This document shows, piece after piece, positions 10,544 to 59,886 of a DNA stretch of 64,000 nt. This stretch comes from an uncultured Bacteroidales bacterium. Lineage in GTDB: Bacteria; Bacteroidota; Bacteroidia; Bacteroidales; Bacteroidaceae. Position numbers and translations under genes: made by a program. The stretch is from the NCBI GenBank assembly GCA_902787575.1, contig CADAGX010000006.1, positions 27,979 through 91,978 of the forward strand. Reading direction: 5' to 3'. The notes beneath the pieces were generated by a model, which was not told the origin of the DNA, searched no databases, and was given only the letters and a program-made list of their open reading frames with translations. Position 1 is the stretch's first letter, and the number at the start of each line of letters is the position of its first letter.

Positions 10544-10622
10544 TGCGACGTGTAGTTTCGGTCTTTGCGACGTGTCGTATTTTTCTTGCGACGTGTGGCG
10601 TCTGTCGGTGTGACGTTTACTT
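10544..10622. repeat. 22-bp-period palindromic array between ClC and tsaC (4 units)
   Basis: Units of the 14-bp 6+2+6 quasi-palindrome start at 10544 (TGCGAC GT GTAGTT), 10566 (TGCGAC GT GTCGTA), 10587 (TGCGAC GT GTGGCG, shifted by one) and, degenerate, 10609 (TGTGAC GT TTACTT). Spacing is 22, 21 and 22 bp. The last unit contains the tsaC stop codon (10617-10619). Confidence 0.85.
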
Positions 10623-11195
10623 TCGGATGAAACTGATTTCGCCGTCTGCGCGGAGGCGTATGATTTGACTCGGTTTCGCCTTCGATGTGTCGTTCTGCCG
10701 GCTCTTCATCACGTAGTCCACGCCCTGTCGTATCGCATCGGACACCTCGCTGAAATTGGCAGGCGACGGCTCGCCGCTCAGGTTGGCACTGGTGCTGACG
10801 ATGGCTTTCTGGAATCGATAGCAGAGTTCGTGGCTGATGTTTTCGCGTGTCACACGCATGGCAATGCTGCCATCCTCGGCCATCAGGTTGGGCGCCACGT
10901 TCAGCGCGCCGTCCAGCACGAGTGTCAGCGGCCGTTCGGCGTAGTCAATCAGGTCCCACGCCACGTCGGGAATTGAGCGCGAGTAGCGTTGCAGCCGGTT
11001 TGCGTCGTCCACCAGACAAATCAGCGCCTTCGAGTCTTCGCGTTGCTTCAGCGCGTAAACACGGCTGACGGCCTCTGCATTTGCAGCGTCGCAGCCAATT
11101 CCCCAGATAGTGTCCGTGGGGTAGAGGATGAGGCCGCCTCGTCGCAGCGTTTCCACGGCCTGCCGTATGTCTTCTGCTATTTCCTTTTGTGTCAT
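10617..11195 (-). CDS. tsaC: L-threonylcarbamoyladenylate synthase (YrdC/Sua5 family)
   Basis: Makes threonylcarbamoyl-AMP from threonine, bicarbonate and ATP for the t6A37 modification of ANN-decoding tRNAs. The 192-aa length is that of the short TsaC form (YrdC domain only, no Sua5 C-terminal domain). Motifs include the N-terminal LILYPTDTIWGIGCD (about residues 20-34), the basic KQRE segment and STSANLSGEPSP (about 134-145). It lies 25 bp after prfC on the minus strand, so two translation-related genes are adjacent. Confidence 0.95.
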   Translation of the reverse strand: MTQKEIAEDIRQAVETLRRGGLILYPTDTIWGIGCDAANAEAVSRVYALKQREDSKALICLVDDANRLQRYSRSIPDVAWDLIDYAERPLTLVLDGALNVAPNLMAEDGSIAMRVTRENISHELCYRFQKAIVSTSANLSGEPSPANFSEVSDAIRQGVDYVMKSRQNDTSKAKPSQIIRLRADGEISFIRK

Positions 11196-11220
11196 TTTTC
11201 TCGCTGTTTCTTTTTTTCTG

Positions 11221-12789
11221 CTAAAACTCGCTGGTGAAATGGAAGCGGATGTGCTCGAAATCCTGCTGCGCCATCGTCAGCACGTAAGCACTGTCGGCCA
11301 GAAACACGTCGCGACCCTCGCGGTCTCGCGCCATGTACTGATATTTCCGCTTCTTGAATGCTTCCAGCTGCGCCTCGTCGTCGCTTTCTATCCAGCACGC
11401 CTTGTAGAGACTGGCTGGCTCCCAGCGGCATTTGGCGCCGTATTCGTTCTCCAGTCGGTATTGTATCACTTCAAACTGCAGTTGGCCGACGGTCCCTATC
11501 AGCTTGCGACCATTGAATTGATGTATGAAAAGCTGGGCGACGCCTTCGTCCATGAGCTGATTGACGCCCTTTTCCAGCTGTTTCGTCTTCATCGGGTCGG
11601 CATTCTCAAGGTACTTAAACATTTCCGGCGAGAAGGAAGGCAGCCCGCGGAAGTGAAGCGGCTCACCCTCGGTCAGCGTATCGCCGATTTTGAAGATGCC
11701 GTTGTCCGGCAGGCCCACGATGTCTCCCGGCCACGCCTCGTCGATTGTCTCCTTGCGCTGTGCCATAAATTGCGTGGGACTGCTGAAGCGCACTGTTTTT
11801 GCCTGTCGTACGTGCAGGTACGGCGCATTGCGGACAAAGCGCCCCGAGCAGACTTTGCAGAACGCAATGCAGGAGCGGTGGTTCGGGTCTATGTTGGCCG
11901 TAATCTTGAAGATGAAACCGGTGAATTTCGGCTCATCGGGCTGCACGTCCCGCTCTTCAGCCTGCGTCGGCCGCGGGCAGGGCGCAATCTGTACGAAGCA
12001 GTCGAGCAACTCCTGAACGCCGAAATTATTCAGCGCCGAACCAAAGAAAACAGGTGCCACCTCCGCATCCAGATACGTTTGCTTGTCGAATTCCGGATAG
12101 ACACCGTCCACAAGTTCCAGGTCGTCGCGCAGTTTCTGTGCATCCCGCTCGCCAACCTGTTCTTCCAACGCGTGGCTCTGAATGTCGACGGCTATCTTTT
12201 CGGTGACTTTCTGCTTGTCGGGCGTAAAAAGGTTAAGCCGCTGTTCGTAGATATTATATACGCCTTTGAAGCGCGCGCCTTGATTTATCGGCCAACTCAG
12301 CGGTCGCACTTTTATTTGCAGCTCCTCTTCCAACTCGTCCAACAGGTCAAACGGATCCTTTCCTTCCCGATCCATTTTATTTATGAAGATAATGACCGGA
12401 GTTTTCCGCATGCGGCAGACGGTCATCAGCTTGCGGGTTTGTGCCTCCACACCCTTCGCACCATCCACAACGATGATTGCCGAATCCACTGCCGTGAGTG
12501 TGCGGAACGTATCTTCAGCGAAATCCTGGTGGCCCGGCGTGTCGAGTATGTTCACTTTGAAGCCCGCATAGTCGAATTCCATGACGCTCGTCGTCACAGA
12601 GATGCCTCGTTGCTTCTCAATCTCCATCCAGTCGCTGGTGGCCGTCTTCTTGATTTTATTATTCTTGACTGCCCCCGCCACTTGAATCTGCCCGCCGAAA
12701 AGCAGAAGCTTCTCGGTGAGTGTGGTTTTTCCCGCGTCGGGATGCGAGATGATGGCAAACGTGCGTCTTCTTTCTATTTCTTGATTCAT
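11221..12789 (-). CDS. prfC: Peptide chain release factor 3
   Basis: Translational GTPase that removes RF1/RF2 from the ribosome after termination. 522 aa from the ATG at 12789; upstream in-frame codons to 12834 are possible but unlike the family. G domain motifs are complete: HPDAGKTT (G1), SVTT in switch I, DTPGHQDF with the catalytic His (G3) and NKMDRE (G4). Domains II and III follow, with the typical VGQLQFEV near residue 430. It lies between DUF4924 (19 bp upstream) and tsaC. Unlike the EF-G paralogue at 34743, the catalytic His is kept. Confidence 0.97.
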
Positions 12790-12808
12790 TGCTTCTGCGT
12801 TTCGTTTT

Positions 12809-13342
12809 TTAAGTTTCTTCGGGTGCTGCCGCAAATCCCTCGCTCAGCAGCTCCAGCAGGTGGCTTACTGGCTGCATGGCGGCCTTCGTTTCGGCCGACG
12901 GCTCGCGTCCCTGCATCTTCAGCACGGTCAGTCCGTACACTGCGTCGAGGCAGTTTTCTATTTCTCCCTTCTCCTTGTCTGCGCCACGTGCTCTCAGTTC
13001 CACGATTGTGGGCAGTGCTTTGTAGTATGCCGCAGCATAGAACGGCTGTTTCGGGTCTTGGAGCAACTCCTGGTGGCGGTCGGCGAGCAGAATCAGCGTG
13101 TTGCGCACCACCTGCACATGCCCCTTTTCGCTTACTCCCTCCTCTCGCATCATTCGTGCCAAGTGGCCGTACCACTCGGTAGCGGCTGTCGTTTGCTCGG
13201 CATCGTAACCGAAGCGTGGCAGATACTCGCTGCGGATTCTGTCGGTGTCGAGGCCGAAAGCGCGGATAACATCCTCCACCTGAAACATATATAAGGCGTA
13301 GGCCACCACGTTCTGCTGTCTGAGTTTCTGTGCAACAAACAT
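12809..13342 (-). CDS. DUF4924 family protein
   Basis: A 177-aa cytoplasmic, probably all-helical protein of the DUF4924 family, found mainly in Bacteroidales and functionally uncharacterised. Recognised from the N-terminus ([20 protein letters not shown]) and the central acidic/Leu-rich helices. No signal peptide or membrane helix is seen. It sits directly before prfC in the same minus-strand unit, which suggests but does not prove a housekeeping role. Confidence 0.8.
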
Positions 13343-14073: not shown

Positions 14074-14152
14074 AGGCGAGTGCAAATTTCGCGCTTTTTT
14101 TCGAGTTAAACGTACTTTTTTATGGAAAAAGTGACGAAGTGTGAAACTAAAT

Positions 14153-14168
14153 CCCTACCTTTGTAGGG
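14153..14168 (+). promoter_or_regulatory. -7 box embedded in a palindrome before the ROK kinase
   Basis: TACCTTTG (14156-14163) fits the -7 consensus and lies inside the perfect inverted repeat CCCTAC-CTTT-GTAGGG (14153-14168). A repressor bound there would cover the promoter. No good -33 TTTG is seen 20 bp upstream, so regulated or weak initiation is plausible. Confidence 0.5.
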
Positions 14169-14218
14169 ACAAACCGCAAGCGTTACAAATTTTTTACGAA
14201 CCCAATAAATGTAGAATT

Positions 14219-15181
14219 ATGGAAAAGAAACCTTTTGTTATTGGCCTCGATTTGGGCGGTACGAACTCCGTTTTCGGAATTGTTGACGGCAAAGCCAACG
14301 TGGTGGCCAGCGTCACAGTGAAGACTCGCGGGCATGGAACAGCAGAAAACTACGTGAACAATTGCTGCGAGGCACTCAATACAATCATCGCACAAGTGGG
14401 CGGAATCGAGAAAATTCAGGCCATGGGCATCGGCGCGCCGAATGGTAACTACTATTCTGGCAGCGTGGAGAATGCTCCCAACCTCGAGTGGCCCGGCATC
14501 ATACCGCTGGCAGATATGTTCAGCCAGCGTCTCGGCATTCCTGTGGCCCTCACCAACGACGCCAACGCAGCCGCCATCGGCGAAATGGCCTACGGCGTGG
14601 CAAAAGGCATGAAGAACTTCATCATGATTACACTTGGCACCGGAGTCGGCAGCGGCATCGTCGTCAACGGCCAGCTGGTGTACGGCAGCGACGGCTTTGC
14701 AGGCGAACTCGGCCACGTGGTAATCGACCGCGGTCCGAGTGCGCGCGATTGCGGTTGCGGCCGCAAGGGCTGTCTCGAGGCCTATTGTTCTGCCACTGGC
14801 ATGGTTCGCACCGCACTCGAATGGATGGCAATTCGCACCACGCCAAGCACGCTGCGCGAAATACCATTCGAGAAACTCGAGGCGAAGGACATCAGCATTG
14901 CAGCTGCGCAAGGCGATTTCCTGGCAAAGGAGATTATGAATTACACGGGCGACCTGTTGGGAAAAGCCTGCGCCGACTTCTGCAATTTCAGCAGCCCCGA
15001 AGCATTTATTTTCTTTGGCGGTCCCACCAAGGCCGGCGACCTGCTGATGAATCCCATCCGCAAGGCATACGACGAAAACGTGCTGATGAACTTCAAGGGC
15101 AAAGCCAAGCTGCTGCTCTCCGAGCTCGACGGCTCCAGTGCCGCCGTGTTGGGCGCCAGCGCTCTCGGCTGGGAACTCTGA
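14219..15181 (+). CDS. ROK-family sugar kinase (probable glucokinase)
   Basis: A 320-aa cytoplasmic kinase of the ROK family, which phosphorylates glucose or related hexoses with ATP. The N-terminal phosphate loop is DLGGTNSVFG (about residues 11-20). The ROK signature with its zinc cluster is intact: ELGHVVID, then CGCGRKGCLEAYCS (about 178-191), giving the His and Cys ligands. The DNA-binding helix-turn-helix of NagC-type ROK regulators is absent, so it is an enzyme. ATG 14219 is chosen because the protein family starts there and because an upstream frame would run through the promoter. A terminator follows at 15207. Confidence 0.92.
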   Translation: MEKKPFVIGLDLGGTNSVFGIVDGKANVVASVTVKTRGHGTAENYVNNCCEALNTIIAQVGGIEKIQAMGIGAPNGNYYSGSVENAPNLEWPGIIPLADMFSQRLGIPVALTNDANAAAIGEMAYGVAKGMKNFIMITLGTGVGSGIVVNGQLVYGSDGFAGELGHVVIDRGPSARDCGCGRKGCLEAYCSATGMVRTALEWMAIRTTPSTLREIPFEKLEAKDISIAAAQGDFLAKEIMNYTGDLLGKACADFCNFSSPEAFIFFGGPTKAGDLLMNPIRKAYDENVLMNFKGKAKLLLSELDGSSAAVLGASALGWEL

Positions 15182-15245: not shown

Positions 15246-15564
15246 CGAGGCCTGCCGTCGCACCGAAAAATGCCACGCGTGGCACGACGAAATGCGACAC
15301 GTAGTTTCTGAAAATCTACACGTCGCGTGAGACGCTGCCACACATAGTTTTTTAGCCGGCACGTGAAGCAGGGTGCCTGGCACACCCGTTTTCCGGACTT
15401 ACAACGGGTCGTATGTGTGCAAATTAGACAATTAAACCCATTTTTTTCACCCTTTTGAACAATTATTCGCGCAAATAATTGCGATTTTGCCTAAAACAAG
15501 TTAAATTTGCGCAGAAATAGGAAAAAGAATTAAACGTATCACCCGTAAAACACAACGAAACATT
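15246..15564. other. Gene-free stretch between the ROK kinase and the outer-membrane protein
   Basis: No gene seen. After the terminator comes a 5-unit palindromic repeat array (15271-15370), then an AT-rich leader (about 15420-15560) with several TTTG/TTG triplets that probably contains the promoter of the outer-membrane protein gene. No TAnnTTTG box was clear. Confidence 0.6.
15271..15370. repeat. 22-bp-period palindromic array after the ROK kinase (5 units)
   Basis: Units start at 15271 (TGCCAC GC GTGGCA, a perfect palindrome), 15293 (TGCGAC AC GTAGTT), 15314 (ATCTAC AC GTCGCG), 15336 (TGCCAC AC ATAGTT) and 15357 (CGGCAC GT GAAGCA). Spacing is 22, 21, 22 and 21 bp. Confidence 0.85.
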
Positions 15565-17362: not shown

Positions 17363-17399
17363 GACGGGAGGCACATGTCGTGCCTCCCGTCGTTTTTTT
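17363..17399 (+). terminator. Terminator after the lipoprotein gene
   Basis: A 12-bp stem (17363-17374 with 17380-17391, GACGGGAGGCAC and its complement), loop ATGTC, then TTTTTTT. Confidence 0.9.
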
Positions 17400-17401
17400 A
17401 T

Positions 17402-17501
17402 TCCAGCCCGTGGAAACTTTTATTCCTGCCCGTGAGAAAAAATTTCCTACACGTGGTTTCGGCAAAACTGCGTGCAGATATTTCAGAAACCACGCGCAAA
17501 T
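17402..17501. repeat. 22-bp-period degenerate palindromic array before purL (5 units)
   Basis: Units start at 17402 (TCCAGC CC GTGGAA), 17424 (TCCTGC CC GTGAGA), 17445 (TCCTAC AC GTGGTT), 17466 (AACTGC GT GCAGAT) and 17488 (AACCAC GC GCAAAT). The sequences are diverged but the 21-22 bp phase is kept. The array begins 3 bp after the preceding terminator. Confidence 0.65.
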
Positions 17502-23052: not shown

Positions 23053-23088
23053 ATTATTTTGCATTTAAAAATTTGTAACGTGTGAAAA

Positions 23089-23682
23089 TTATTTTTCCTC
23101 GTGTAGCAATTCCGATACGACGTGTCGCAACTGTGGCAACAACGTGTCGCATCCTTCGCTGTCATTCGTGACAATGTAGTCGGCACGCTGTCGCTGTTCG
23201 GCCTTCTGGTGTGCCATGCGCGCTTCCACCTGTGCCTGTGTGGCTCCATCGCGCTGCATTGCACGGCGCAGGCGTGTCTGTGTCGGTGCCTCCACGCAGA
23301 GTGTGGCGTCGAGACCCTCGTGAAATCCGCTCTCGAAGAGGATGGCGCTCTCCACCGCAGCCAGTGGTGCCGTCTGCCGGGCGAGCCATTGCTCCAAGTC
23401 GCGGCGAACAGCAGGGTGGACCAGTGCGTTTACCGCCTGCGCATGCGTCGCATCGCCGAAAATGTAGGCTGCCAGCACACGTCGCTGCAAGTGGCCTTCG
23501 GCATCGTACACCTGTGGACCGGCCAACTGCGTGAGGGCGCTTCGCAGCTGTGCGTCGTCCTCCTCGAGCCGTTTGGCCGCAGCATCGCAATCATAGACCG
23601 GTATGCCCCAATGCTCGCTGAGCAACCGAGAGACATAACTCTTGCCGCTGCCGATGCCACCTGTGATGCCCAGCAGTTTCAT
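23089..23682 (-). CDS. coaE: Dephospho-CoA kinase
   Basis: Phosphorylates dephospho-CoA, the last step of coenzyme A synthesis. The 197-aa length is normal. The P-loop GITGGIGSGKS is at residues 5-15, the substrate/lid region follows with VYDCDAAAKRL and LVHPAVRRDLEQWL, and the ADYIVTNDSEG segment is near the C-terminus. It overlaps the YbbR-like gene upstream by 4 bp. The last 25 codons coincide with a four-unit palindromic repeat array (23095-23173), so the C-terminal tail (about DTLLPQLRHVV onward) is encoded by repeat DNA. Confidence 0.95.
   Translation of the reverse strand: MKLLGITGGIGSGKSYVSRLLSEHWGIPVYDCDAAAKRLEEDDAQLRSALTQLAGPQVYDAEGHLQRRVLAAYIFGDATHAQAVNALVHPAVRRDLEQWLARQTAPLAAVESAILFESGFHEGLDATLCVEAPTQTRLRRAMQRDGATQAQVEARMAHQKAEQRQRADYIVTNDSEGCDTLLPQLRHVVSELLHEEK
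23095..23173. repeat. Palindromic repeat array inside the coaE 3' coding region (4 units)
   Basis: Units start at 23095 (TTCCTC GT GTAGCA), 23116 (TACGAC GT GTCGCA), 23138 (AACAAC GT GTCGCA) and 23160 (TGTCAT TC GTGACA), spaced 21, 22 and 22 bp. The phase matches the intergenic arrays although the DNA is coding. Confidence 0.6.
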
Positions 23683-32811: not shown

Positions 32812-33507
32812 ATGAAGAAGAAACTCTACTTCTCTGTGCTTCTGACGGCGCTGGCTGCCGTGCTTACGGCATGCCACGACGACGAAACGTATGCCGAGCA
32901 GAAGGAAAAAGAAGCCAAGGCCATCAACGCTTTTCTGCAGCGCGATGTGGTGATACGCAGCGCCGAGGGCGATACACTGCGACACATCGGACGCATCAAA
33001 GTGATACAGGAGTCGCAATTTCTGGCGCAGGATTCTACAACTGACTTGGAGGAAAACCAGTATGTCGTCTTCAAGAACAGCGGCGTTTACATGCAGATTG
33101 TGCGCCGTGGCGTGGGCGAACGTATCTTGCCGGGGCAGTCGAAGCAAGTGCTGACGCGCTTCCTCGAGTACAACATACTGGGAGACAGCCTGCAACTGCG
33201 CGACGAAGTGCCGTATTGGGCGACCGACGAGGGGATTATGGACGTGGTGAATGTGTCGGGCTCAATCTCGGCAACCTGGAATACCACGTATCACAGCGGC
33301 GGTGCCATGTACACGGCTTACAACGAGACGAAGGTGCCCGACGGATGGAAGGTGCCGCTGAATTATATCCGCATTGGGCGTCAGAACAGCGAAGAGGGCA
33401 TAGCTCTGGTGCGACTCATCGTACCGCATTCGCAGGGGCATCAGAATGCCACAAAGGGCGTGTACCCTTGTTTCTACGAAATCAGTTATCAGCAGACGCG
33501 TGACTGA
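32812..33507 (+). CDS. DUF4827 domain-containing lipoprotein
   Basis: A 231-aa lipoprotein with a signal peptide ending in the lipobox VLTAC (Cys21), followed by HDDETY (acidic). The mature part resembles FKBP-like or related beta domains in length and pattern, and DUF4827 proteins are Bacteroidetes-specific with no fixed role. ATG 32812 is preferred over upstream in-frame codons because it gives a clean signal peptide (MKKKLYFSVLL). It overlaps the hemW start by 8 bp. Confidence 0.82.
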   Translation: MKKKLYFSVLLTALAAVLTACHDDETYAEQKEKEAKAINAFLQRDVVIRSAEGDTLRHIGRIKVIQESQFLAQDSTTDLEENQYVVFKNSGVYMQIVRRGVGERILPGQSKQVLTRFLEYNILGDSLQLRDEVPYWATDEGIMDVVNVSGSISATWNTTYHSGGAMYTAYNETKVPDGWKVPLNYIRIGRQNSEEGIALVRLIVPHSQGHQNATKGVYPCFYEISYQQTRD

Positions 33508-34615
33508 GGTCGGGCTCTACGTACACGTGCCTTTCTGCCAGTCGCGGTGCATATACTGCGATTTCTTCTCTACGACTTTTACTGAGTGGCGCGAGCAGTA
33601 TGTTATGGCATTGCAGCGCGAAATTCGCGCACGTCGTGACGAACTGCCTAACGCGCGCGCGCGTACTATTTATATAGGTGGGGGCACACCCAGTCAGCTC
33701 AGCAGTATACAGCTGCGCGACATATTCGAGGCGCTGCTGGCAAATTTCGAACTCGAGCCGCAGGCCGAGGTTACGGTGGAGGCAAATCCCGAAGACGTGA
33801 CGGCCGATTGGCTCGCTGCGTTGCGCGATACGCCGGTAAATCGCATCAGCATGGGTGTTCAGACGTTTCACAACGATCTTTTGCGCTTTCTGCATCGTAG
33901 GCACGACGCGCGCCGTGCTGTGAAAGCAGTGGAGCAATGCCTCGCTGCCGGCTTCCGAAATCTCAGTATCGACCTTATCTATGGTTTGCCAGGACAGGAC
34001 ATGACTGCGTGGCGACAGGATGTGGCACAGGCTTTTGAGCTCGACGTCACGCATCTGAGCGCCTACGCCCTGATGTTTGAAGAGGGAACGGCATTGTATG
34101 ACATGCGACAAAAAGGCGCTGTGCGGGAAGCGGACGAAGAACTGAGCCTCGACATGTATTGTTGGCTGCAGGACGAAGCCGCGCGCCGCGGCTGGGAGCA
34201 CTACGAAATATCAAATTTTTGCCGCCCCGGGTTCTTCTCGCGCCACAACAAAAGCTACTGGCTGGGCCTTCCTTATCTGGGCTTCGGTCCTGGCGCCCAT
34301 TCCTACGACGGGCAACGTGTGCGCCGATGGAACTACGCCGACCTGAAAGATTACGTCCGAGACGCAGGTAATCCGCGTTTCGAGAGCGAAACACTGTCGG
34401 ATGACGAATTATATAATGAATATGTGATGACTCGGCTGCGACTGCCCGAAGGTGTGGACTTGACGGCTCTCTCCACAGAAAACCGCACATACTTCCTGCG
34501 GATGGCTCAGCCGCACATTGATGGAAATCGACTGACTTTCAGCGAAAACCACGTGTCGCTTTCGCGAATTGGACTCTTCGTTTCGAACGATATCATCAGC
34601 GATTTGATGCGTTGA
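33500..34615 (+). CDS. hemW: Radical SAM heme chaperone/coproporphyrinogen III oxidase-like protein
   Basis: A 371-aa radical SAM protein of the HemN/HemW family. The 4Fe-4S ligand motif is CQSRCIYCDF (CxxxCxxC, at about residues 12-21), followed by the SAM-binding glycines GGGTPSQL and VEANPEDVT. HemW-type members traffic heme rather than decarboxylate coproporphyrinogen; length and N-terminus (YVHVPFCQSRC) fit HemW. The GTG at 33500 is used because an upstream start would run back deep into the DUF4827 gene. A HemN_C-like domain occupies about 290-370. Confidence 0.88.
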   Translation: MTEVGLYVHVPFCQSRCIYCDFFSTTFTEWREQYVMALQREIRARRDELPNARARTIYIGGGTPSQLSSIQLRDIFEALLANFELEPQAEVTVEANPEDVTADWLAALRDTPVNRISMGVQTFHNDLLRFLHRRHDARRAVKAVEQCLAAGFRNLSIDLIYGLPGQDMTAWRQDVAQAFELDVTHLSAYALMFEEGTALYDMRQKGAVREADEELSLDMYCWLQDEAARRGWEHYEISNFCRPGFFSRHNKSYWLGLPYLGFGPGAHSYDGQRVRRWNYADLKDYVRDAGNPRFESETLSDDELYNEYVMTRLRLPEGVDLTALSTENRTYFLRMAQPHIDGNRLTFSENHVSLSRIGLFVSNDIISDLMR

Positions 34616-38551: not shown

Positions 38552-39265
38552 ATGAACACGACAGACAACAAACTGCACATTCTCCTGTGCGAAGACGAGG
38601 AAAGCCTGGGAATGCTGGTGCGCGAATACCTGCAGGCTAAGGGATACGAAGCCGAGCTCTTTCTCGACGGCGAAGCCGGCTATAAGGCTTTCATGAAGAA
38701 CAAGTACGACATGTGCCTTCTTGACGTGATGATGCCACGCATGGACGGCTTCACGCTGGCTCGCGAGATTCGTATGGTGAACGCCGAAGTCCCCATCATT
38801 TTTCTCACGGCCAAGAACCTGAAGGACGACATCCTGGAGGGGTTCAAACTGGGCGCGGACGATTATCTGACAAAGCCATTTTCGATGGACGAGTTGGTCT
38901 ACCGCATGGAGGCCATACTGCGGCGCGTGCGTGGCAAGAGCCAGCGCAACGTAACGCGATACCAGCTGGGACAATTTACATTCGACACACAGCGACAAAT
39001 GCTCACCATTGGCGAGAAGCAGACCAAGCTGACGACAAAAGAGAGCGAGCTGTTGACGATGTTGTGCAAGCACGCAAACGAAGTTTTGGAGCGCGAGCAG
39101 GCACTTAAGACGATTTGGATTGACGACAACTACTTCAACGCCCGCAGCATGGACGTGTACATTACGAAGTTGCGTAAGTTGCTGCGCGACGACCCGGCCA
39201 TCGAAATCAACAATGTGCACGGCAAGGGCTATCGCCTTATCGTGCCGAATCTGGTGGAAGAATAG
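38552..39265 (+). CDS. rprY: OmpR/PhoB-family response regulator RprY
   Basis: A 237-aa response regulator with receiver domain (about 8-125: acidic EDEE, phosphoacceptor Asp in LLDVMMPRMDG, Thr in FLTAK, Lys in DYLTKPF) and a winged-helix DNA-binding domain (about 140-235: LTTKESELLTMLCKHAN, NARSMDVYITKLRKLLRDD, GKGYRLIV). Cognate of RprX by position (11 bp) and family. It ends 20 bp before a perfect 30-bp palindromic terminator. Confidence 0.93.
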   Translation: MNTTDNKLHILLCEDEESLGMLVREYLQAKGYEAELFLDGEAGYKAFMKNKYDMCLLDVMMPRMDGFTLAREIRMVNAEVPIIFLTAKNLKDDILEGFKLGADDYLTKPFSMDELVYRMEAILRRVRGKSQRNVTRYQLGQFTFDTQRQMLTIGEKQTKLTTKESELLTMLCKHANEVLEREQALKTIWIDDNYFNARSMDVYITKLRKLLRDDPAIEINNVHGKGYRLIVPNLVEE

Positions 39266-39285: not shown

Positions 39286-39323
39286 AGAGGGCGTGCCAAC
39301 GTTGGCACGCCCTCTGCTTTTTC
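39286..39323 (+). terminator. Perfect palindromic terminator after rprY
   Basis: AGAGGGCGTGCCAAC (39286-39300) is directly followed by its exact complement (39301-39315), then GCTTTTTCC. It can act on both strands in geometry, but the T-run is only on the + side. Confidence 0.9.
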
Positions 39324-39344: not shown

Positions 39345-39424
39345 AACTACGTGTGGCATCTCTTCATGCCACGCGTCGCGTGAGTGAAAACTACGTGTCG
39401 CATTCGTCATTGCGACGTGTGGCA
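39345..39424. repeat. 22-bp-period palindromic array between rprY and the outer-membrane protein (4 units)
   Basis: Units start at 39345 (AACTAC GT GTGGCA), 39367 (TGCCAC GC GTCGCG), 39389 (AACTAC GT GTCGCA) and 39411 (TGCGAC GT GTGGCA), spaced exactly 22 bp. The last ends 3 bp before the stop codon of the minus-strand gene (39428-39430). Confidence 0.9.
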
Positions 39425-39427: not shown

Positions 39428-40123
39428 TCAGAAGCACACGCCAACGTGTACGCCGCACTCGTGAATCTGCGGCAACTTGCTGTCGTCGGGGAAGTCGCGG
39501 CCGTAGGATACGCCCACAAAGTAGCGTTGCCACCACATTCGCAGCCCCACCTGCCAGCCCAGCTGCGCCCATTCCCATTCGGCTCCCGTGGTGTTGGCTT
39601 TCTTGTGGTCCAGCAGCGAAGTTTTTGTGCCGCCCAGTTTTTCGTGTGCCACAGCCGTGGCCCGCATATACACGCCGGCAAAGGGCGCCAACGCGATGTC
39701 GCGATGCGAGGAAAGATACAGCTTATAACTCACGTTGATGGGCACGCGGAATGTGAGCAGGCTGTACTTTGCGTGCTGGTGGGCGTCGTCTCCGCCAGAG
39801 TGCGAGTATTTGGCTTGCAATCCCAGTTCCACAAAGTAGGGTTTCTCCTCTTCCACCTGAAATATGTGCGCCCATCCCATCGAGAACTCTTGGAAGTGGA
39901 GATGAGGCGTGGCGCCGTCGAAATGATACTGCGAGGGAGAATACTGCACGTGGAGCATGTTTTTATACTCTTTGTGCTTCGGTTTCTGCACCGTGTCCTC
40001 TTCCTCATCGTAGTACAGCCCCAGCCCGTCGTCGTAGTCCTCGTCCGTTTCTATCTGTGCGAACGTGTTAAGGCTCATGCTGAGCGCGGCTGCGAGGCAG
40101 ATGAGTGTATTTTTCTTCTTCAT
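39428..40123 (-). CDS. Predicted outer-membrane beta-barrel protein
   Basis: A 231-aa exported protein with signal peptide (about 1-22, NTFAQ), then an acidic segment (TDEDYDDGLGLYYDEEED) and about eight amphipathic strands. It ends with an aromatic residue (VHVGVCF), typical of outer-membrane barrels. It resembles the small porin/OmpA-like barrels of Bacteroidetes; the specific role is unknown. It lies downstream of the 58-aa protein (47 bp gap) on the same strand. Confidence 0.75.
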   Translation of the reverse strand: MKKKNTLICLAAALSMSLNTFAQIETDEDYDDGLGLYYDEEEDTVQKPKHKEYKNMLHVQYSPSQYHFDGATPHLHFQEFSMGWAHIFQVEEEKPYFVELGLQAKYSHSGGDDAHQHAKYSLLTFRVPINVSYKLYLSSHRDIALAPFAGVYMRATAVAHEKLGGTKTSLLDHKKANTTGAEWEWAQLGWQVGLRMWWQRYFVGVSYGRDFPDDSKLPQIHECGVHVGVCF

Positions 40124-46468: not shown

Positions 46469-46716
46469 CGAATAAGCGAGAGAAAAGAAAAGAAAATCAC
46501 GCTTTTCTTTTCTTTTCCGAGCGAGAGTAACTTGGGCCGTCAGGCCAAAGTTATGAATAAGCGAGAGATGTGCAAAACGAAAGACGAAGTTTTTCGGTTT
46601 GGCACGTCCGAGCGGGAGTAATTTGGGCGCAGCCAAAGTTGAGAATAAGCGAGCGATGTGAGAAAAGAAAGACGACGGTTTTCGGTCTCACACGTCCGGA
46701 CGGAAGAAACTTGCGT
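46461..46716 (-). repeat. Three tandem 85-88 bp hairpin/promoter-like repeats before btuC
   Basis: Each unit begins (in + orientation) with CAAAGTTA-like sequence and GAATAAGCGAG: starts 46461, 46546 and 46634, i.e. 85 and 88 bp apart. Each then has an inverted repeat of variable sequence (46484 AAAAGAAAAGAAAA with TTTTCTTTTCTTTT; GTGCAAAACG with GGTTTGGCAC; GTGAGAAAAG with TTTTCGGTCTCAC), then GTCCGAGCG.GAGTAA and TTGGGC. Read on the minus strand each unit ends in TAACTTTG (the third in CAACTTTG), the -7 promoter form. The arms vary while pairing is kept, which suggests selection for structure. Confidence 0.8.
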
Positions 46717-46852
46717 GTGGAATTTCGCATGCCACACGTCGCACGAAAATTGCGACGTGTAGTTTTTGTCTTTGCGACGTGTAGTTTTTGTCTTTGCGAC
46801 GTGTAGTTTTTGTCTTTGCGACACGTGGCATTTCGGCCTCCGACGTGTCACT
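46708..46852. repeat. 22-bp-period palindromic array downstream of btuF (7 units)
   Basis: Units start at 46708 (degenerate), 46730 (TGCCAC AC GTCGCA), 46751, 46773 and 46795 (three identical TGCGAC GT GTAGTT with spacer TTTGTCTT), 46817 (TGCGAC AC GTGGCA) and 46839 (TCCGAC GT GTCACT). Spacing is 21-22 bp. The last unit contains the btuF stop codon (46848-46850). Confidence 0.9.
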
Positions 46853-47975
46853 CCATCGGGCGGAAGTACGACTTCTCGGGATGGAGGCCGAGCTCGGGGT
46901 GCAGCAGGCTGATGATGTCCTCGAGCAGGCGTTCGGGGTGGAAGGGTGTCTCCTCGTAATAATTGTTCGAACCGATGTCGCAGAACCACATCTGCGCATC
47001 GATGGGTCGCAGCGTCGGGCAGTCTGCCACGATTTGGCGGCGGGTCAGCACGCCATTGTTCTTCATAATCCACACGTCGGCCGTCATGGCGCGGTCCAGC
47101 ACGCGCTCTATGCTCATGGCCACACTGCCCGCTCCGCGCAGGTCGCTGAACAGATAGTCGGCTCCGGCGTCGCGATAGAGCTGCCCCATGGTGCTTTCTC
47201 CGCCTGGCAAGTACCAATATCCACTCTTCGGCACTTCGCATATCAGGCGCGGACGTGTGCTGGCCGTCTCTGCGAGCCGACGTAGATCGAGATATCGCCG
47301 CTCGATGCTTTCAAACAGGCTGTCGGCTTCGCGGGCGCGACCAAACAATCTGCCGTAGAAGCGTATCCATTCGGCGCGTCCCAAAGGCGAGCGCTCCATA
47401 TAGTCGGCGCACTCCACGATGGGGATGCCGAGGCGGGTGAGACGGCCGTAGCCACCGCTATTCTCGAAAGGTGTGGGAAGCAGCGCGTCGGGCTGCAGTT
47501 GAATGACGCGCTCCAGGTCGGGCGACATCCCGTTGCCGAGGTTGGCAATTCGTCCACAGGCCACACCCTCATGAACGAAAGGCAGATGTATGTATTCCAA
47601 CTCACAGATGCCGCCAATAGCATCTGGGCAGCCCAGTTCCTGCAGTAGGGCGCAGTGCACGCTGGTGAAAACGGCGGCGCGTCGCAGCGGAGCGCAGACA
47701 AGGGTGGCGCCGGCTGCCTCGGCAGGAAGTGCCGAAGCGGAATCTTCGGCCTGTCGGATGATGTATCGGTGCAGCAGCTGGGTGCTGTCCCACGGGTTGC
47801 GCATGGTGGCTTCGAGGTAGCCGTCGTGCTGAACCATCACGAGGTTTCGGGCGTAGCGCAGGCAAATGGTGTCGCCTGGCTCGGCCGTGGCAGACTGTTG
47901 GCGGCCGGGCTGGCAGGCGGTGCAGCCGAGAATGGCCAAAACGAGTGCGAGGACGATACGGATGGCGTGTTTCAT
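46848..47975 (-). CDS. btuF: ABC transporter substrate-binding protein, probable BtuF
   Basis: A 375-aa periplasmic lipoprotein of the FepB/BtuF fold, delivering corrinoid to BtuCD. Signal peptide ends in a lipobox (LGCTAC, Cys21) and the next residues are QPGRQQ, not acidic, consistent with the inner membrane/periplasm rather than the surface. N-lobe and C-lobe (about 100-230 and 240-375) are linked by a long helix; GRIANLGNGMSPDLERVIQL is the usual family block. It overlaps the btuB-like gene by 4 bp, so both are translated together. Its stop lies inside a repeat unit. Confidence 0.87.
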   Translation of the reverse strand: MKHAIRIVLALVLAILGCTACQPGRQQSATAEPGDTICLRYARNLVMVQHDGYLEATMRNPWDSTQLLHRYIIRQAEDSASALPAEAAGATLVCAPLRRAAVFTSVHCALLQELGCPDAIGGICELEYIHLPFVHEGVACGRIANLGNGMSPDLERVIQLQPDALLPTPFENSGGYGRLTRLGIPIVECADYMERSPLGRAEWIRFYGRLFGRAREADSLFESIERRYLDLRRLAETASTRPRLICEVPKSGYWYLPGGESTMGQLYRDAGADYLFSDLRGAGSVAMSIERVLDRAMTADVWIMKNNGVLTRRQIVADCPTLRPIDAQMWFCDIGSNNYYEETPFHPERLLEDIISLLHPELGLHPEKSYFRPME

Positions 47976-52806: not shown

Positions 52807-53574
52807 TTATTTCTTCACTACCACGTTGTCGAAAGCGAAGTAGGCCGGAGTGTTCAGGCCCCAGTCGCTCTTGTCGCTGCCTTCCATCGTGAAGTGGAGA
52901 TGCGTCACCTTGCCCAATGCGCTGAGCGGATGGGTGTACCACTTCGAGAGCTTTCCGCCGTCCAGAGCCACGGCAATCTTGCTGACACCCGTCTCGGTCT
53001 CTCCGTTGAAGCCCGTCACGATGATGTTCAGGAAGTCGCCTTTTGCAGTCAGCGGCTTGGCGTAGTCGTTACCATTCTTGATAACGCTCAGCACGTAGGT
53101 CGTGGCGATGACATCGAACGACTGGATTTCGCGAGCCACACCGTCGGCAAAACTCAGCGTGGCGCCGTCGTTGCAATAAACGACAGCGAAGTTCTTGCTG
53201 CCGTTGCTCACGGGTACGGCCAACTGTATGTCGTACGAGCGAATGGAGTCGCTGTTCTCGTCCACGTAATTGCTGATGGCAATACCGCTTTCCGAGAAAC
53301 CGTAGTTGCCGCCGTAGGCATTCGTCATTCCGCCGTGCAGCTGAGTCGTGGCGTCGGTCCACGCATAATCCTTGGCGTTCTCGCCGTAGAGCAGCGGGCC
53401 GTAGTTCTGCGGGTTGTCGATGAGGGCGTCCCATTTCGACTCCTCGAATGTCAGCGTCATCGTGTTGGCAGCCTCTTCCGTGCTGGGGTTGAAGTCGTCG
53501 TTCTCGTCGTCACAAGCCGTAAATGCGAAGCCGGCAAAAAGCAGCATCGCCAGAAACTTTGTCTGTTTCATCAT
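52807..53574 (-). CDS. DUF4465 lipoprotein of the cobalamin locus
   Basis: A 255-aa lipoprotein, first gene after the riboswitch. Lipobox FAFTAC (Cys21) followed by DDENDD, a strong surface-export signal. The mature part is a beta-sandwich-like DUF4465 domain (about 40-250) with GGNYGFSESGIAISN and NTPAYFAFDNVVV. DUF4465 proteins occur in B12-uptake loci of gut Bacteroides, and at least some accessory lipoproteins there bind B12; I infer the same. ATG at 53574 is followed by a second at 53571; either is possible. Confidence 0.85.
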   Translation of the reverse strand: MMKQTKFLAMLLFAGFAFTACDDENDDFNPSTEEAANTMTLTFEESKWDALIDNPQNYGPLLYGENAKDYAWTDATTQLHGGMTNAYGGNYGFSESGIAISNYVDENSDSIRSYDIQLAVPVSNGSKNFAVVYCNDGATLSFADGVAREIQSFDVIATTYVLSVIKNGNDYAKPLTAKGDFLNIIVTGFNGETETGVSKIAVALDGGKLSKWYTHPLSALGKVTHLHFTMEGSDKSDWGLNTPAYFAFDNVVVKK

Positions 53575-53621
53575 TTTGTTATTTTAAGGTTACACATGTT
53601 ATGTTCTACGTCCGCGCGTAT
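53575..53621. other. Leader linker between riboswitch and DUF4465 start
   Basis: Short AT-rich sequence before the ATG with no SD-like element; start recognition is likely by an A-rich leader. Confidence 0.6.
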
Positions 53622-53784
53622 TCTGATGGCGGCAGGTTTTCTGACTCGTTCCTGCTTCGCGGTGCACCTTCCCAGAGACGTTTCTTCTCCAGTGGCTGAT
53701 ACGCACGGAAGCACATGTGAGGAACACACAGCTGCGGGACAGTTTCGGAGTTTCACCGAATTCCCTTATCCGTCATTTCGTCCG
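53622..53784 (-). promoter_or_regulatory. Cobalamin riboswitch
   Basis: Minus-strand leader with all hallmarks: GGGAATTCGGTGAAACTCCG near 53766, then ACTGTCCCGCAGCTGT, GCCACTGG in the middle, GGGAAGGTGCACC, and the B12 box AGTCAGAAAACCTGCC ending near 53630. About 50 nt separate it from the DUF4465 ATG. Binding of adenosylcobalamin should switch off translation or transcription of the uptake operon. This fixes the function of the following genes as corrinoid acquisition. Confidence 0.95.
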
Positions 53785-53815
53785 CAAAGTTACGCTTTTT
53801 AGTTTGAAAAACAAA
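53785..53815 (-). promoter_or_regulatory. Promoter of the cobalamin uptake operon
   Basis: On the minus strand: TTTTG (53812-53816), 19-bp gap, TAACTTTG (53785-53792), directly before the riboswitch. A palindromic repeat array starts 1 bp beyond the -33 box (53817). Confidence 0.85.
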
Positions 53816-53816: not shown

Positions 53817-53874
53817 TCTGACGTGCAGTTTCGCAGATTTCCACGTGTGGCAAGTCAGGTTGCCACGTGAGGTT
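53817..53874. repeat. Palindromic repeat array between the B12 promoter and panE (3 units)
   Basis: Units start at 53817 (TCTGAC GT GCAGTT), 53839 (TTCCAC GT GTGGCA) and 53861 (TGCCAC GT GAGGTT), spaced 22 bp. The third unit encodes the last panE residues (part of KPHVAT) and the array touches the B12 operon -33 element. Confidence 0.8.
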
Positions 53875-54823
53875 TTGTTTTTTCTTGCCGTTGTTTCTGC
53901 ATGAATCGCAGCTCGGCCTCCAGCATTTCGAGGCGTGGCATTGGGCATCCCGCCTGCCGCGCTATCTGCAGCGGGCGCGAGTAGATATAATCTATCTCCA
54001 TCGGCCTGCCAAAGTCCCAGTCGAGCCGCATCGACGGGCTGTAGGGAGTCATGGCGTCGGTGGTGACAATCATTTTTTCCACGAACTCTTCGTCTACGCC
54101 CTCCACGCCCATTGCTCGTGTGGCGCGTACTATCTCCATCATCTGCTCGCGGATGAGTTGGCGCGTGGCGGGCATCTGTAGCAGTTCATCCGTCTGGCAG
54201 TGCAGGGCCACGGTCATGCCGTTGAACGGCATGTTCCACACCGCTTTTCGCCAGCGTGCCGTGGCGTATTCCACCTCGTGCGCCTCTATTCCGGCGGCCT
54301 GCAAGTCGGCCGTCACGCTCTGTATGAGCGCCTCGTCGGGACACGAATAATTTCCGATGTTTATGCTGCCATAGCACTGGTGGCAGACACGCCCCGGCTC
54401 CGTCTTGGCCGAGCAGATGAACGCCAGTCCGGCGGCCAGCCACACGTCGGGAAACTGCTGCTGCACGTCCTCCTCCACGCCGATGCCGTTCTGTATGAGC
54501 ACCACCAGCGTGCGCTCGTGCAACAGCGGCGGAAGCAGTCGCGGCAACATGTGATTATTGGTACTTTTGAGCGCCACCAGCACTACGTCGCACTGCGGCA
54601 TCCTCGCCACGTCGTTATAAACGTGAGGGTTCGACAGGTGGAAATCCCCGTCGCACGAGTCCACAAACAGCCCGTGCTCCTTCACAAAATCATAGTCGCG
54701 GTGAAGCAGAAAATGAACTTCCCGTCCGCTCCGCGCCAGCCGCGCACCGTAGAATCCTCCCACGGCTCCCGTGCCGATTACTCCATATCGAAGCCTTATT
54801 TCTCCGTTGTACGTATTATTCAT
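53855..54823 (-). CDS. panE: 2-dehydropantoate 2-reductase (ketopantoate reductase)
   Basis: NADPH-dependent reduction of ketopantoate to pantoate for pantothenate/CoA synthesis. 322 aa. N-terminal NADPH-binding Rossmann motif GVIGTGAVGGFYGARLARSG (about residues 14-33), then DVVLVALKSTNN and LVVLIQNGIGVEEDV; the catalytic Lys is in RWRKAVWNMPFNG (about 192). C-terminal helical domain ends in SPSMRLDWDFGRPMEIDY. The C-terminal four residues (HVAT) come from a repeat unit. The start overlaps the 3' end of the DUF2461 pseudogene by 8 bp. Confidence 0.93.
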   Translation of the reverse strand: MNNTYNGEIRLRYGVIGTGAVGGFYGARLARSGREVHFLLHRDYDFVKEHGLFVDSCDGDFHLSNPHVYNDVARMPQCDVVLVALKSTNNHMLPRLLPPLLHERTLVVLIQNGIGVEEDVQQQFPDVWLAAGLAFICSAKTEPGRVCHQCYGSINIGNYSCPDEALIQSVTADLQAAGIEAHEVEYATARWRKAVWNMPFNGMTVALHCQTDELLQMPATRQLIREQMMEIVRATRAMGVEGVDEEFVEKMIVTTDAMTPYSPSMRLDWDFGRPMEIDYIYSRPLQIARQAGCPMPRLEMLEAELRFMQKQRQEKTKPHVAT

Positions 54824-55566: not shown

Positions 55567-55584
55567 CGAAAGTCTCAAGAGAAA

Positions 55585-55619: not shown

Positions 55620-55642
55620 AATTATACGCGCGCGTGCGCGAC

Positions 55643-57811: not shown

Positions 57812-57817
57812 AATCTA

Positions 57818-59662
57818 TCAGATTCCCAGTTTAGCGTTATACTCTTTCAATGTCTTCAGTTGGTCTACGCGCACATGGATGAAGTTTTCGATGCCTGCGG
57901 CTTTCAGATCTTCAGCACATGCGGGAGCTCCGGCCACTACGAACATGGCGCGGCCGTTGAGGTACTTGAATGCCGGAATGGCGTATTCTGCGTACTCGTC
58001 GTCGCTGGAGCAGATGACAACGATGTCAGCGCCAGCCTCGAGTGCCTTGTCTACGCCTTCTTCCACGGTGGGGAAGCCCAGATTGTCTATCACTTTGTAT
58101 CCAGCGGCTGCCAGGAAGTTGCAGCTGAACTGAGCGCGAGCCTGGCGCATGGCCAGATTACCGATGGTGAGCATGAAGGCAACAGGTGTCTTGGCTGCTT
58201 TCTCGGTTGTGAGGCGCAGTGTCTCGAAATCGCTGGCCAGACGTGTGGGCTGTATGGTGGGCAGTGTGCCGCACTCGGTGCCGCAGCCGCACTGGCATTC
58301 GCGCGGTTCCTTGCCTTCGCTCTTCTCGGTGAAGTTGGGGAACTGATTTGTGCCGAGCAGGAACTCTTTGCGCTTGCCTGCGTTGGCGTGGCGTGTCTGG
58401 TTTGTCTCGTTGATGGTGTTCTGGATGGCGCCGCCCTTGACTGCTGTCAGGAAGCCGCCCTGCTCCTCAACGCTGAGGAACAGCTTCCAAGCCTGTTCTG
58501 CCAGAGCTACGGTGAGTTCTTCGACGAAGTAGCTGCCGCCGGCCACGTCCACCATGCGGTCGAAGTGGCACTCGTCCTTGAGCAGGAGCTGCTGGTTGCG
58601 TGCGATGCGCTCGGCAAACTCGGTGGGAGTCTCGTACGGCTCGTCGAAGGGACGCACCACGATGCTCTCCACGCCGCCCAGTGCAGCGCTCATCGTCTCG
58701 GTTTGCGAGCGCAGCATGTTCACGTAGCTGTCGAAGAGTGTCTGGTTGTAGGTCGTGGTAACGGCCAGTACGTGCATCTTGGCGCTTTCCTTGTCTGTCG
58801 TGTACTGACTTACGATTTGCGACCACAGCATTCGTGCGGCACGCAACTTGGCAATCTCCATGAAGTAGACGCCGTTGATGCCCATGTTAAATTTGATGTT
58901 GCTGGCAGCCACTTCGGGTGCCACGCCTGCTTCGGTGAGCTGCTGCATGTACTCGTTGCCCCATGCCAAAGCATAGCCAAGGTCCTGATAGCTGTAGGCG
59001 CCGGCATCCGTCAGGCGGTAAGCGTTTACGCCAACGGCGCGGAAGTTGGGCCATGCGGCCAACGTCTCCACTACGGCCTTTGCCTCCGAGATCATCTCGC
59101 TGAGATCTTTGCCCTTGGTGAGCATCTTTTCAATCGGGTCGAAGTTGATGCTGCCGCGTATCTTCTCGGCTGCGATGCCAGACTGGCGGAAGTATTCGGC
59201 CAGGATCTGTGCCAACTCTGCCGTGTGACGCGGACAAGTGGTGAAGTTCACCTCTACGCAATCCAGGTAGATGCCTTTCAGCAGTGTGGCCACGAACGCC
59301 GGGCTGACGTCCTTGCCTTCAATCTTGAAGCCGAGGCTGTCCACGCCTTTGCAGAGCACGTCCAGTGCCTTGGCGTTGGCCTCTTCGGCCGATTCGCACT
59401 TGATGTCCTGACGGACACACCACTCGTTGTCGGCGGCTTTGTTGCCGCGCACATACGGGAACTCGCCGGGCAAGGCGTTCACTGTGGCCAGTTGGTCCAC
59501 ATCTTCCTTGCGGTAGAAAGGCTCCATGCTGAAGCCTTCGTTCGTTCTCCAGACCATCTTTTTCTGATAGTCGGCACCCTTGAGGTCTACCTCAATCTTG
59601 TCGCGCCATTCCTGACGCGAGGGCGCAGTGAAATCGGAGAATAGCTTTTCTTTTTCTGCCAT
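57818..59662 (-). CDS. mutA: Methylmalonyl-CoA mutase, small subunit
   Basis: Heterodimer partner of MutB. 614 aa. It has the same TIM-barrel and C-terminal Rossmann-like fold but lacks the DxHxxG cobalamin motif and key active-site residues, so it is structural. N-terminus MAEKEKLFSDFTAPSRQEW; domains about 30-500 and 510-614 (LTIGNLAMRQARAQFSCNF). First gene of the mutA-mutB pair, with a -33/-7 promoter at 59709-59740 on the minus strand. Confidence 0.97.
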   Translation of the reverse strand: MAEKEKLFSDFTAPSRQEWRDKIEVDLKGADYQKKMVWRTNEGFSMEPFYRKEDVDQLATVNALPGEFPYVRGNKAADNEWCVRQDIKCESAEEANAKALDVLCKGVDSLGFKIEGKDVSPAFVATLLKGIYLDCVEVNFTTCPRHTAELAQILAEYFRQSGIAAEKIRGSINFDPIEKMLTKGKDLSEMISEAKAVVETLAAWPNFRAVGVNAYRLTDAGAYSYQDLGYALAWGNEYMQQLTEAGVAPEVAASNIKFNMGINGVYFMEIAKLRAARMLWSQIVSQYTTDKESAKMHVLAVTTTYNQTLFDSYVNMLRSQTETMSAALGGVESIVVRPFDEPYETPTEFAERIARNQQLLLKDECHFDRMVDVAGGSYFVEELTVALAEQAWKLFLSVEEQGGFLTAVKGGAIQNTINETNQTRHANAGKRKEFLLGTNQFPNFTEKSEGKEPRECQCGCGTECGTLPTIQPTRLASDFETLRLTTEKAAKTPVAFMLTIGNLAMRQARAQFSCNFLAAAGYKVIDNLGFPTVEEGVDKALEAGADIVVICSSDDEYAEYAIPAFKYLNGRAMFVVAGAPACAEDLKAAGIENFIHVRVDQLKTLKEYNAKLGI

Positions 59663-59708
59663 TTTTGTATAAAAAATAATAATGTGTGTGTGCTTGTTAG
59701 AAGCGGCG

Positions 59709-59740
59709 CAAAATTACTTAATTTTGGGGACGTGGCAAAA
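59709..59740 (-). promoter_or_regulatory. mutAB promoter
   Basis: Minus strand: TTTTG (about 59736-59740), 19-bp gap, TAATTTTG (59709-59716), then about 46 nt to the mutA ATG (59662). Confidence 0.75.
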
Positions 59741-59807
59741 TTTATGTGCAGGAATCCGTCATCGTTTGACGTTTTTTCTTCTTTTCGGCACTTGTGAGGC
59801 GCCAGAA

Positions 59808-59886
59808 AACTACGTGTGGCAAAATTTTTGCGACGCGTCGCGTTGACCATTGCGACGTGTCGCGTGAGTCGAAACTACGCGTCGCA
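59808..59886. repeat. 22-bp-period palindromic array in the mutA/transporter divergent region (4 units)
   Basis: Units start at 59808 (AACTAC GT GTGGCA), 59829 (TGCGAC GC GTCGCG), 59851 (TGCGAC GT GTCGCG) and 59873 (AACTAC GC GTCGCA), spaced 21, 22 and 22 bp. This is the only array not next to a 3' gene end. Confidence 0.9.

Follow-up and report, generated by a model that had tools for sequence, protein, structure and literature searches.

Short palindromes dispersed through bacterial genomes are usually filed as repetitive extragenic palindrome (REP)-like or miniature inverted-repeat transposable element (MITE)-like. Plasmid iterons, by comparison, are direct repeats at one origin, in steps of about 22 bp and on one face of the helix, to which Rep initiators bind cooperatively. 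The described repeat nearest to the one reported here is BrickBuilt of Porphyromonas gingivalis (Klein et al. 2015, PMC4596501), a 23-nt minisatellite/MITE in 1 to 22.8 copies; a leader, a tail, or both, with inverted ends, accompany most of its elements. Clustered regularly interspaced short palindromic repeats (CRISPR) are described as constant, 24 to 48 bp long, and separated by unrelated spacers (PMC3733652), and PINSR of Prevotella intermedia is described as a 188-bp intergenic repeat (PMC4755523). Here, we analyzed a 64,000-nt stretch of DNA from an uncultured Bacteroidales bacterium (GenBank assembly GCA_902787575.1, contig CADAGX010000006.1, positions 27,979 to 91,978; below, the window), in which a reading of the letters alone (the original prediction) had reported arrays of a 14-bp quasi-palindrome repeated every 21 to 22 bp and had matched the pattern to no named family. 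Full-text searches of open-access literature likewise yielded no such family, nor did they turn up a description of 22-bp palindrome arrays from Prevotellaceae. Words that vary by species, yet are kept between two sister species, suggest an unrecognized genome-wide protein-binding system, of which the window observation is one local dialect.

A scan of the window for three arm types, allowing up to 2 mismatches, gave clustered sites at 21- to 22-bp steps, and the window holds eight real arrays of the 14-bp (6-2-6) quasi-palindrome (Table 1). For the source genome (G000; other genomes are numbered G001 to G133 and so on, fetched loci bear L numbers, and contigs bear C numbers), we analyzed 464 kb, comprising the window and 400 kb of contigs C1 and C2, using a position model trained on 122 seed units from the same 464 kb and a chaining step that favors 21- to 22-bp steps. 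The model returned 44 chains, 39 of them with at least two units, and four units were the most frequent size (14 of the 39 arrays). Chains scoring at least 15 numbered 39 in the real sequence versus 0.0 in dinucleotide shuffles (three replicates), and across the whole genome the strict 14-mer occurred 308 times, against 22 for a reversed-pattern control. The centers of 154 units were GT in 66, AC in 55, GC in 30, and something else in 3, and the arm types, 2-bp center, and free mixing of arms proposed originally were all recovered.

The phase is equally sharp. Strong sites in the 464 kb lay 22 bp apart in 77 pairs, 21 bp apart in 11, and 14 bp apart in one, with no other distance between 12 and 41 bp represented, in a count whose model was trained on units partnered at 21 to 22 bp yet scores by letters only; lags of 43 and 44 bp appear as second neighbors. 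The bare 6-bp core AC-RY-GT, counted without any model, gave 78 pairs at 22 bp and 12 at 21 bp, every other lag from 3 to 41 having fewer than 4, so that the spacing preference of the original prediction stands on both counts. Neighboring spacers are mostly dissimilar: 48 step pairs share at most 4 of their 7 to 8 bases, and every one of these steps is 21 or 22 bp, in chains that had been assembled with a preference for that distance. Among 45 units placed by their two neighbors only, C.AC-RY-GT.G is kept with few exceptions, whereas the remaining arm positions switch between a small number of linked words.

The evolution of such arrays can be followed in the sister species G012 and G024, in which arrays were extended from strong seeds in 20- to 23-bp steps. 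Contig C1 of G012 and contig C4 of G024 are syntenic, with seven blocks longer than 1.8 kb at 87 to 96% identity and two shorter ones at 75 and 79%. The G012 contig carries 22 arrays. Fourteen fall wholly within aligned DNA, and each of them is found in both species; the remaining 8 extend beyond the aligned blocks or lie outside them altogether. In the aligned parts of the 22 arrays, chosen by their match in G012, substitutions affected 29 of 866 positions within the 14-mers (3.3%; 10 of 496 in the inner eight bases and 19 of 370 in the outer six) and 78 of 376 in the spacers (20.7%). Flanking noncoding DNA differed at 169 of 947 positions (17.8%); noncoding DNA away from arrays differed at 466 of 5631 (8.3%), below both spacers and flanks, and codon positions 1, 2, and 3 differed at 5.4, 2.6, and 11.5% (2639 of 22969 for the third). 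Units located by their neighbors alone gave the same picture, with substitutions at 8 of 280 positions, compared with 66 of 272 in the corresponding spacers (Fisher P = 1.7e-14). The step was 22 bp in 67 of 67 cases in G012, two stretches of G024 gave 46 of 47 and 16 of 17, and 31 of the 44 arrays of the two species have four units. The spacers diverge at the pace of the flanks but keep their length, and the palindromes are conserved, as is typical of protein sites held in register. Selection on phased binding sites appears a better account of this pattern than the decay of repeats, and dead repeats, slippage, or hairpins could produce it only with difficulty. Site and spacing conserved with a free spacer, as expected of a phased binding array, was thus found in this pair for one motif.

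Beyond the sister pair, we surveyed rumen Prevotellaceae metagenome-assembled genomes (MAGs), sampling 36 other species of the genus, mostly at 20 kb or less apiece; among named records, the closest come from MAGs of rumen and hindgut Prevotellaceae/Bacteroidaceae, with mutase protein identity up to 83%. Among 138 other species of the genus, the window motif showed an excess of at least twofold only in G133 (54 versus 26) and G001 (21 versus 9). The motif is therefore nearly confined to its own species, and it is the architecture, rather than the sequence, that is common to the genus. In a motif-free measure of self-similarity at fixed lags, the genus shows its maximum at 22 bp. The signal is strongest in the closer relatives, with z scores of 20.2 for loci at 77% mutase identity or more, 6.0 at 73 to 75%, 1.1 at 70 to 72%, and 2.6 at 67 to 69%. 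At 66% self-identity, 27 period-22 arrays were found in 12 of the 36 species, with a mean dyad symmetry of 0.588 versus 0.456 in column shuffles. At 68% self-identity, 753 kb from other species of the genus held 25 period-22 arrays, whereas none of the remaining periods between 14 and 31 exceeded 6. Period-22 arrays numbered 2 in 255 kb from other families of the order, and none occurred in 341 kb from elsewhere in the class (32 kb of it from another genus of the same family). The lag detector is insensitive (on the 464 kb of the source genome it reported 13 lag-22 arrays, with 16 known arrays overlapped, versus 39 arrays by the motif model), so array counts in other species are lower bounds and blanks are weak.

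The array words vary by species; examples are AAWGGTTAACCWTT, GGGACRYGTCCC, GCGTTRYAACGC, and ACATACATGTATGT. Across 25 genomes, AAWGGTTAACCWTT has 192 copies in G012, 189 in G024, and 0 or 1 in the other 23; GGGACRYGTCCC occurs 30 times in G005, 24 times in G035, and 0 or 1 times elsewhere; and GCGTTRYAACGC occurs 51 times in G001, 3 times in G004, and 0 or 1 times elsewhere, with reversed-pattern controls for the three words giving 0 to 3 per genome. Arrays of 22-bp period also occur in two further families of the order (L066 at 11597 and L075 at 888), so the design either predates the genus or extends beyond it. Period-23 arrays are present as well, three of them in one genome of the genus and others in L141, L175, L200, and L072; those of L072, at 8231 and 9647, come from G054, which belongs to a different family of the order. 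Their arms (CTCACAA / CTGACAA) flank a 2-bp center, and they show the same design at a different period. Among 2.9 million viral contigs there were 5 exact matches of one 16-mer, and one array queried against plasmids gave no match.

Positions relative to genes were taken from gene calls by a home-made caller. The original prediction had placed most arrays just after, across, or inside gene 3' ends, which holds in the window, where in 7 of 8 cases the array falls across the 3' end of a gene or no more than 90 bp from it (the array at 59808 sits between divergent genes), and is weaker over the 464 kb, where the 39 arrays comprise 14 in codirectional gaps, 11 in divergent gaps, 3 in convergent gaps, 10 inside a called gene, and 1 at a contig end. 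Of the codirectional arrays, counted from the individual rows, 12 of 14 are nearer the upstream gene's 3' end. The 44 arrays of G012 and G024, a count that includes orthologues from both species and hence many non-independent cases, comprise 26 codirectional, 12 convergent, and 6 divergent, the last although divergent gaps hold 9137 of 30039 intergenic bp; no midpoint lies inside a called gene. In 21 of these 26 codirectional cases, the array is closer to the 3' end of the upstream gene (median, 36 bp past it) than to the next start (130 bp). Among codirectional gaps, gene ends are favored. The gap beyond the 3' end of an AspT-like gene holds arrays in 9 of 33 loci (28 to 31 of which cover the spot), with differing words, in nine species (L132, L134, L136, L138, L141, L148, L149, L159, and L180); these lie roughly 30 to 560 bp past the gene and about 2.0 to 2.5 kb upstream of the mutase gene, and their neighbors differ where visible. 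Since this count is near chance by a rough estimate from array density, we do not count it as evidence of positional conservation.

We consider it probable that these are phased multi-dimer protein-binding arrays at gene ends, with a word that changes between species. Each 14-bp quasi-palindrome would be the site for a dimer of a sequence-specific DNA-binding protein, one arm per half-site. The 22-bp (sometimes 21-bp) step would set successive dimers on the same face of the helix, and an array, often of four sites (80 to 88 bp), would be held cooperatively as a single nucleoprotein complex. For this complex we infer a boundary role at the ends of transcription units, where it might block read-through or organize the nucleoid between units. 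The recognized word would change quickly between species, and probably the places too, and between two close species both would be kept by purifying selection. The original prediction had offered two options, an array bound by a dimeric protein and a mobile or expanding repeat. The first is supported by the conserved dyads and step, beside freely diverging spacers, in G012 and G024 and by the lack of excess self-complementarity, and the second is also partly right, given the 22-bp duplications at 46751-46816 and the dispersal in G133 described below.

Lrp/AsnC proteins were compared as candidate binders. Lrp/AsnC octamers wrap DNA, and four dimers on four phased palindromes would fit a four-unit array. 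Such proteins were found in 12 of 12 array-bearing genomes and in 5 of 6 others (G054, with its 23-bp arrays, is among the 5). The recognition-helix region of the common protein, VCGVSRAAVHQRVQHL, is identical in G005, G035, G012, and G024, and in G008 and G027 it differs at the first residue only. The recognition helix does not follow the words but is the same, or nearly so, in species whose words differ, and Lrp/AsnC was therefore rejected as the species-specific binder.

Several observations weigh against phased protein binding at gene ends. No binding protein was identified among the candidates compared (Lrp/AsnC and the REP-associated tyrosine transposase, RAYT). Divergent gaps are not avoided in the source genome (11 of 28 intergenic arrays, with 30% of gap length), making the gene-end role less secure. 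The evidence of selection comes from a single species pair, whose motif is not that of the window species, and no close relative of the window species was found among the genomes compared. In the pair, on the scale of noncoding DNA distant from arrays, the arm contrast is only 2.5-fold; choosing arrays by their G012 match lowers arm divergence by up to about half, an effect that the neighbor-located subset mostly avoids; and indel events are fewer within arrays but not zero (3 in 1242 bp versus 14 in 2304 bp of flanks). Dyad symmetry is clear (>0.15) in only 11 of the 27 motif-free arrays of other species. Several half-site words (TGCGAC, TGCCAC, AACTAC, CGCGAC, and CGCCAC) would be unusual for one protein. 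Finally, G133 carries a dispersed 90- to 91-bp array with inverted 24-bp constant ends, which resembles a mobile repeat.

This last point bears on the rival that survives best, a REP- or MITE-like selfish palindromic repeat consisting of tandem 22-bp bricks that are spread by an enzyme and have no host function, which we judge rather unlikely. The arrays do spread, are species-specific and mainly intergenic, and show local 22-bp duplications; a carrier mechanism was not found. In G133, the 90- to 91-bp form was seen in 15 of 20 stretches fetched around motif matches, and its internal palindromes keep the 22-bp step. The 24-mer that bounds it occurs 70 times in G133, 22 times in G001, once in G026, and not at all in the others among 139 genomes of the genus. 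This outer palindrome reads CTTGAC..ACAATTGT..GTCAAG (G133 and G001; L210-L224 and L225-L264). Every copy listed has at least one internal mismatch, C-C or G-G mostly in G133 and A-A/T-T in G001, and none of those listed is a perfect dyad, though the search pattern permitted one. As for a parent element, no 24-mer pair enclosing a gene was seen at 14 of the 70 and 14 of the 22 places, where the nearest 100 to 130 bases were read by eye. Nor was there a consistent target duplication at 15 G133 copies, where the best direct repeats were 3 to 7 bp at varying distances, a point against this rival.

Comparisons of place and flank also touch on a selfish origin. The Sua5 gene had an array at the same spot in 0 of 29 fetched relatives, for one locus and with an insensitive type of detector that overlaps only 16 of the 39 arrays of the source genome, and over longer times array places probably change. 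Flanks of 35 source-genome arrays share 80 12-mers, against a noisy control of 100.6 (s.d. 100.9). Within them, 12-mers on GTGTAGGTT (e.g., TGTAGGTTTTTT and GTGTAGGTTCGC) recur in flanks of at least 3 arrays of the 464-kb sample, as a selfish repeat might leave; GTGTAGGTT may possibly be a further word or a second dispersed repeat. No inverted ends were seen in the source-genome arrays, and no leader or tail was found there in a noisy test. Dead copies of a selfish repeat should lose palindrome and spacing together, whereas the G012 and G024 arms are 5- to 8-fold better kept than spacers and flanks.

The RAYT-type domain PF01797 (Y1_Tnp) scored over the cut-off in 11 of 41 genomes, with one each in G000, G027, and G035, and not in array-bearing G001, G012, G016, and G024 (these four 72 to 92% complete). 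With PF01797 in a minority only and several array-bearing genomes without it, a RAYT transposase was rejected as the general cause. The PF01797 gene of the source genome lies about 3 kb from a six-unit array, with no other chain nearby. It is a single RAYT-like Y1 transposase gene, in a stretch (L023, about 7137-10450; C1:147137-150450) where the genes close to it are presumably adenine-specific methyltransferase-like and HNH-nuclease-like.

Classical operator arrays, that is promoter-side sites at which one transcription factor regulates the next gene, appear improbable. Phased dimer sites are typical of cooperative regulators, and the 11 of 28 source-genome intergenic arrays in divergent gaps fit this reading. 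Codirectional arrays, however, mostly lie nearer a 3' end in both data sets, and the 12 of 44 G012 and G024 arrays between convergent genes have no start to control.

Still less probable, to the point of being very doubtful, are RNA or single-strand hairpins acting as terminators or mRNA 3' stabilizers. A position just past stop codons would suit them, the G133 24-mer forms a long imperfect hairpin, and folding is stronger in source-genome arrays than in their dinucleotide shuffles (mean z, −2.85), as expected of any inverted words. Against word-order shuffles, however, 32 of these arrays fold no better (mean z, +0.42; s.e., 0.27). In the source genome, arms are complementary in 35 of 117 distinct units versus 43.8 expected by free mixing, and across the spacer in 23 of 93 cases versus 33.6 expected. 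There is thus no excess self-complementarity within units or across spacers; the deficit weakens under within-array shuffles (P = 0.085 and 0.41), and we do not claim avoidance. The source-genome arrays show no sign of hairpin design. At 39286-39322 of the window, between the response-regulator gene and the array at 39345, a strong hairpin followed by a T run looks by eye like an intrinsic terminator, so the array is not required there as a hairpin terminator.

Neutral minisatellites from replication slippage can be set aside as scarcely credible: three units of the 46709 array are identical 22-bp copies (46751-46816; Tandem Repeats Finder [TRF], 46750-46822, period 22, 100%) and other arrays have repeated units, but slippage leaves unexplained one motif at dozens of loci, the alternating word orientation, and conserved arms beside diverged spacers, and is contradicted already by the G012 and G024 divergence figures.

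Within the window, seven of the ten places listed originally hold arrays under the motif model (10544, 15271, 23095, which starts at 23074, 39345, 46708, which starts at 46709, 53817, and 59808), and the array at 4952-5007, absent from that list, also passes. The remaining three do not: 21877 and 31536 have one weak site each, and the phase said to persist through 17402-17501 reduces to one weak site at 17402 (best chain, a single unit, 11.2) and a doubtful pair of copies found by TRF (Table 1).

Table 1. Arrays of the 14-bp quasi-palindrome in the window, followed by one doubtful pair (positions are those of the window; strands in parentheses)
Coordinates	Units (starts)	Setting	Score
4952..5007	3, diverged (4952, 4973, 4994)	between 3' end of gene 4347-4940 (+) and Fmt start (about 5011)	chain 20.1; shuffles none >=15
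10544..10600	3 (10544, 10566, 10587)	16 bp past 3' end of Sua5/YrdC gene 10617-11195 (-)	
15271..15349	4 (15271, 15293, 15314, 15336)	89 bp past 3' end of ROK-family gene 14141-15181 (+)	
23074..23151	4 (23074, 23095, 23116, 23138)	spans 3' end of gene 23089-23682 (-)	chain 39.3
39345..39424	4	between convergent genes 38552-39265 (+, response regulator) and 39428-40123 (-)	chain 86.1
46709..46852	7 (46709 to 46839)	3' end of gene 46848-47975 (-)	chain 100.6
53817..53874	3	spans 3' end of ApbA/PanE-like gene 53855-54823 (-)	chain 29.1
59808..59886	4	between divergent genes 57818-59662 (-, methylmalonyl-CoA mutase family) and 59997-61709 (+, Asp-Al_Ex permease, AspT-like)	chain 78.8
17396..17439	doubtful pair of 22-bp copies, CCGTG cores, arms outside motif vocabulary		TRF 74

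Directly adjoining the 46709 array are two 88-bp tandem copies, 83% alike (46516-46698; 88 = 4 × 22), and an isolated high-scoring unit, AACCACGTGTCGCT (34547-34560; score, 21.8), lies within the open reading frame 33446-34615 (+) with no phased neighbor. At gathering score, the only Rfam match in the window is a cobalamin riboswitch (73 bits; 53614-53801, -), and no array in the window matches an RNA family; the riboswitch ends about 15 bp from the 53817 array and lies upstream of gene 52807-53574 (-).

A bolder claim, which we put forward only tentatively, is that the specificity of a binding protein evolves more quickly than the remainder of its genome, so that dozens to hundreds of sites are rewritten per species group as gene-end boundary complexes, with one architecture (14-bp dyad, 22-bp step, and about four dimers) throughout the genus and beyond. 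If the arrays are bound by protein, rumen Prevotellaceae would have a genome-wide boundary or nucleoid system that is expected to be missing from standard annotation, and their species would form a natural series for the co-change of DNA-binding specificity and up to hundreds of sites. Some junk-like intergenic repeats in this clade would then not be neutral.

Compared with known systems, the arrays are set apart by sites and a 22-bp step that are conserved in the short term and a vocabulary that is exchanged. Going by its published description, BrickBuilt is alike in coming from the same bacterial order and in its tandem units of about two helix turns, its intergenic location, its many copies per genome, and its imperfect units; it differs in that the arrays here have a 22-bp step (21 bp in a minority), a 14-bp dyad with a variable 7- to 8-bp spacer where the 23-nt tandem unit has none, words that differ between species, and a dyad conserved against its spacer. 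REP sequences and bacterial interspersed mosaic elements (BIMEs) with RAYT, as covered by Di Nocera et al. (2013, PMC3733652), are also short dispersed palindromes that are species-specific and often downstream of genes, but the arrays here are phase-locked, have neither a constant GTAG/CGTC end tag nor a general RAYT, and in the source genome show no hairpin design. GTAG occurs in one arm type only of the source genome, CGTC spans the center of many units and is never an end tag, and both are missing from the G012 and G024 words. BrickBuilt and REP, so described, each fail at least one defining feature here. The CRISPR description differs from these 14-bp variable units with 7- to 8-bp spacers at dozens of dispersed loci, and PINSR, judged by its description, bears no resemblance to them. 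Iterons share arrays at steps of about 22 bp, whereas here half-sites alternate and many arrays are dispersed over the chromosome. A fast-changing binding system would follow a logic comparable to the turnover of eukaryotic centromeres or PRDM9 and, if true, would deserve a class of its own.

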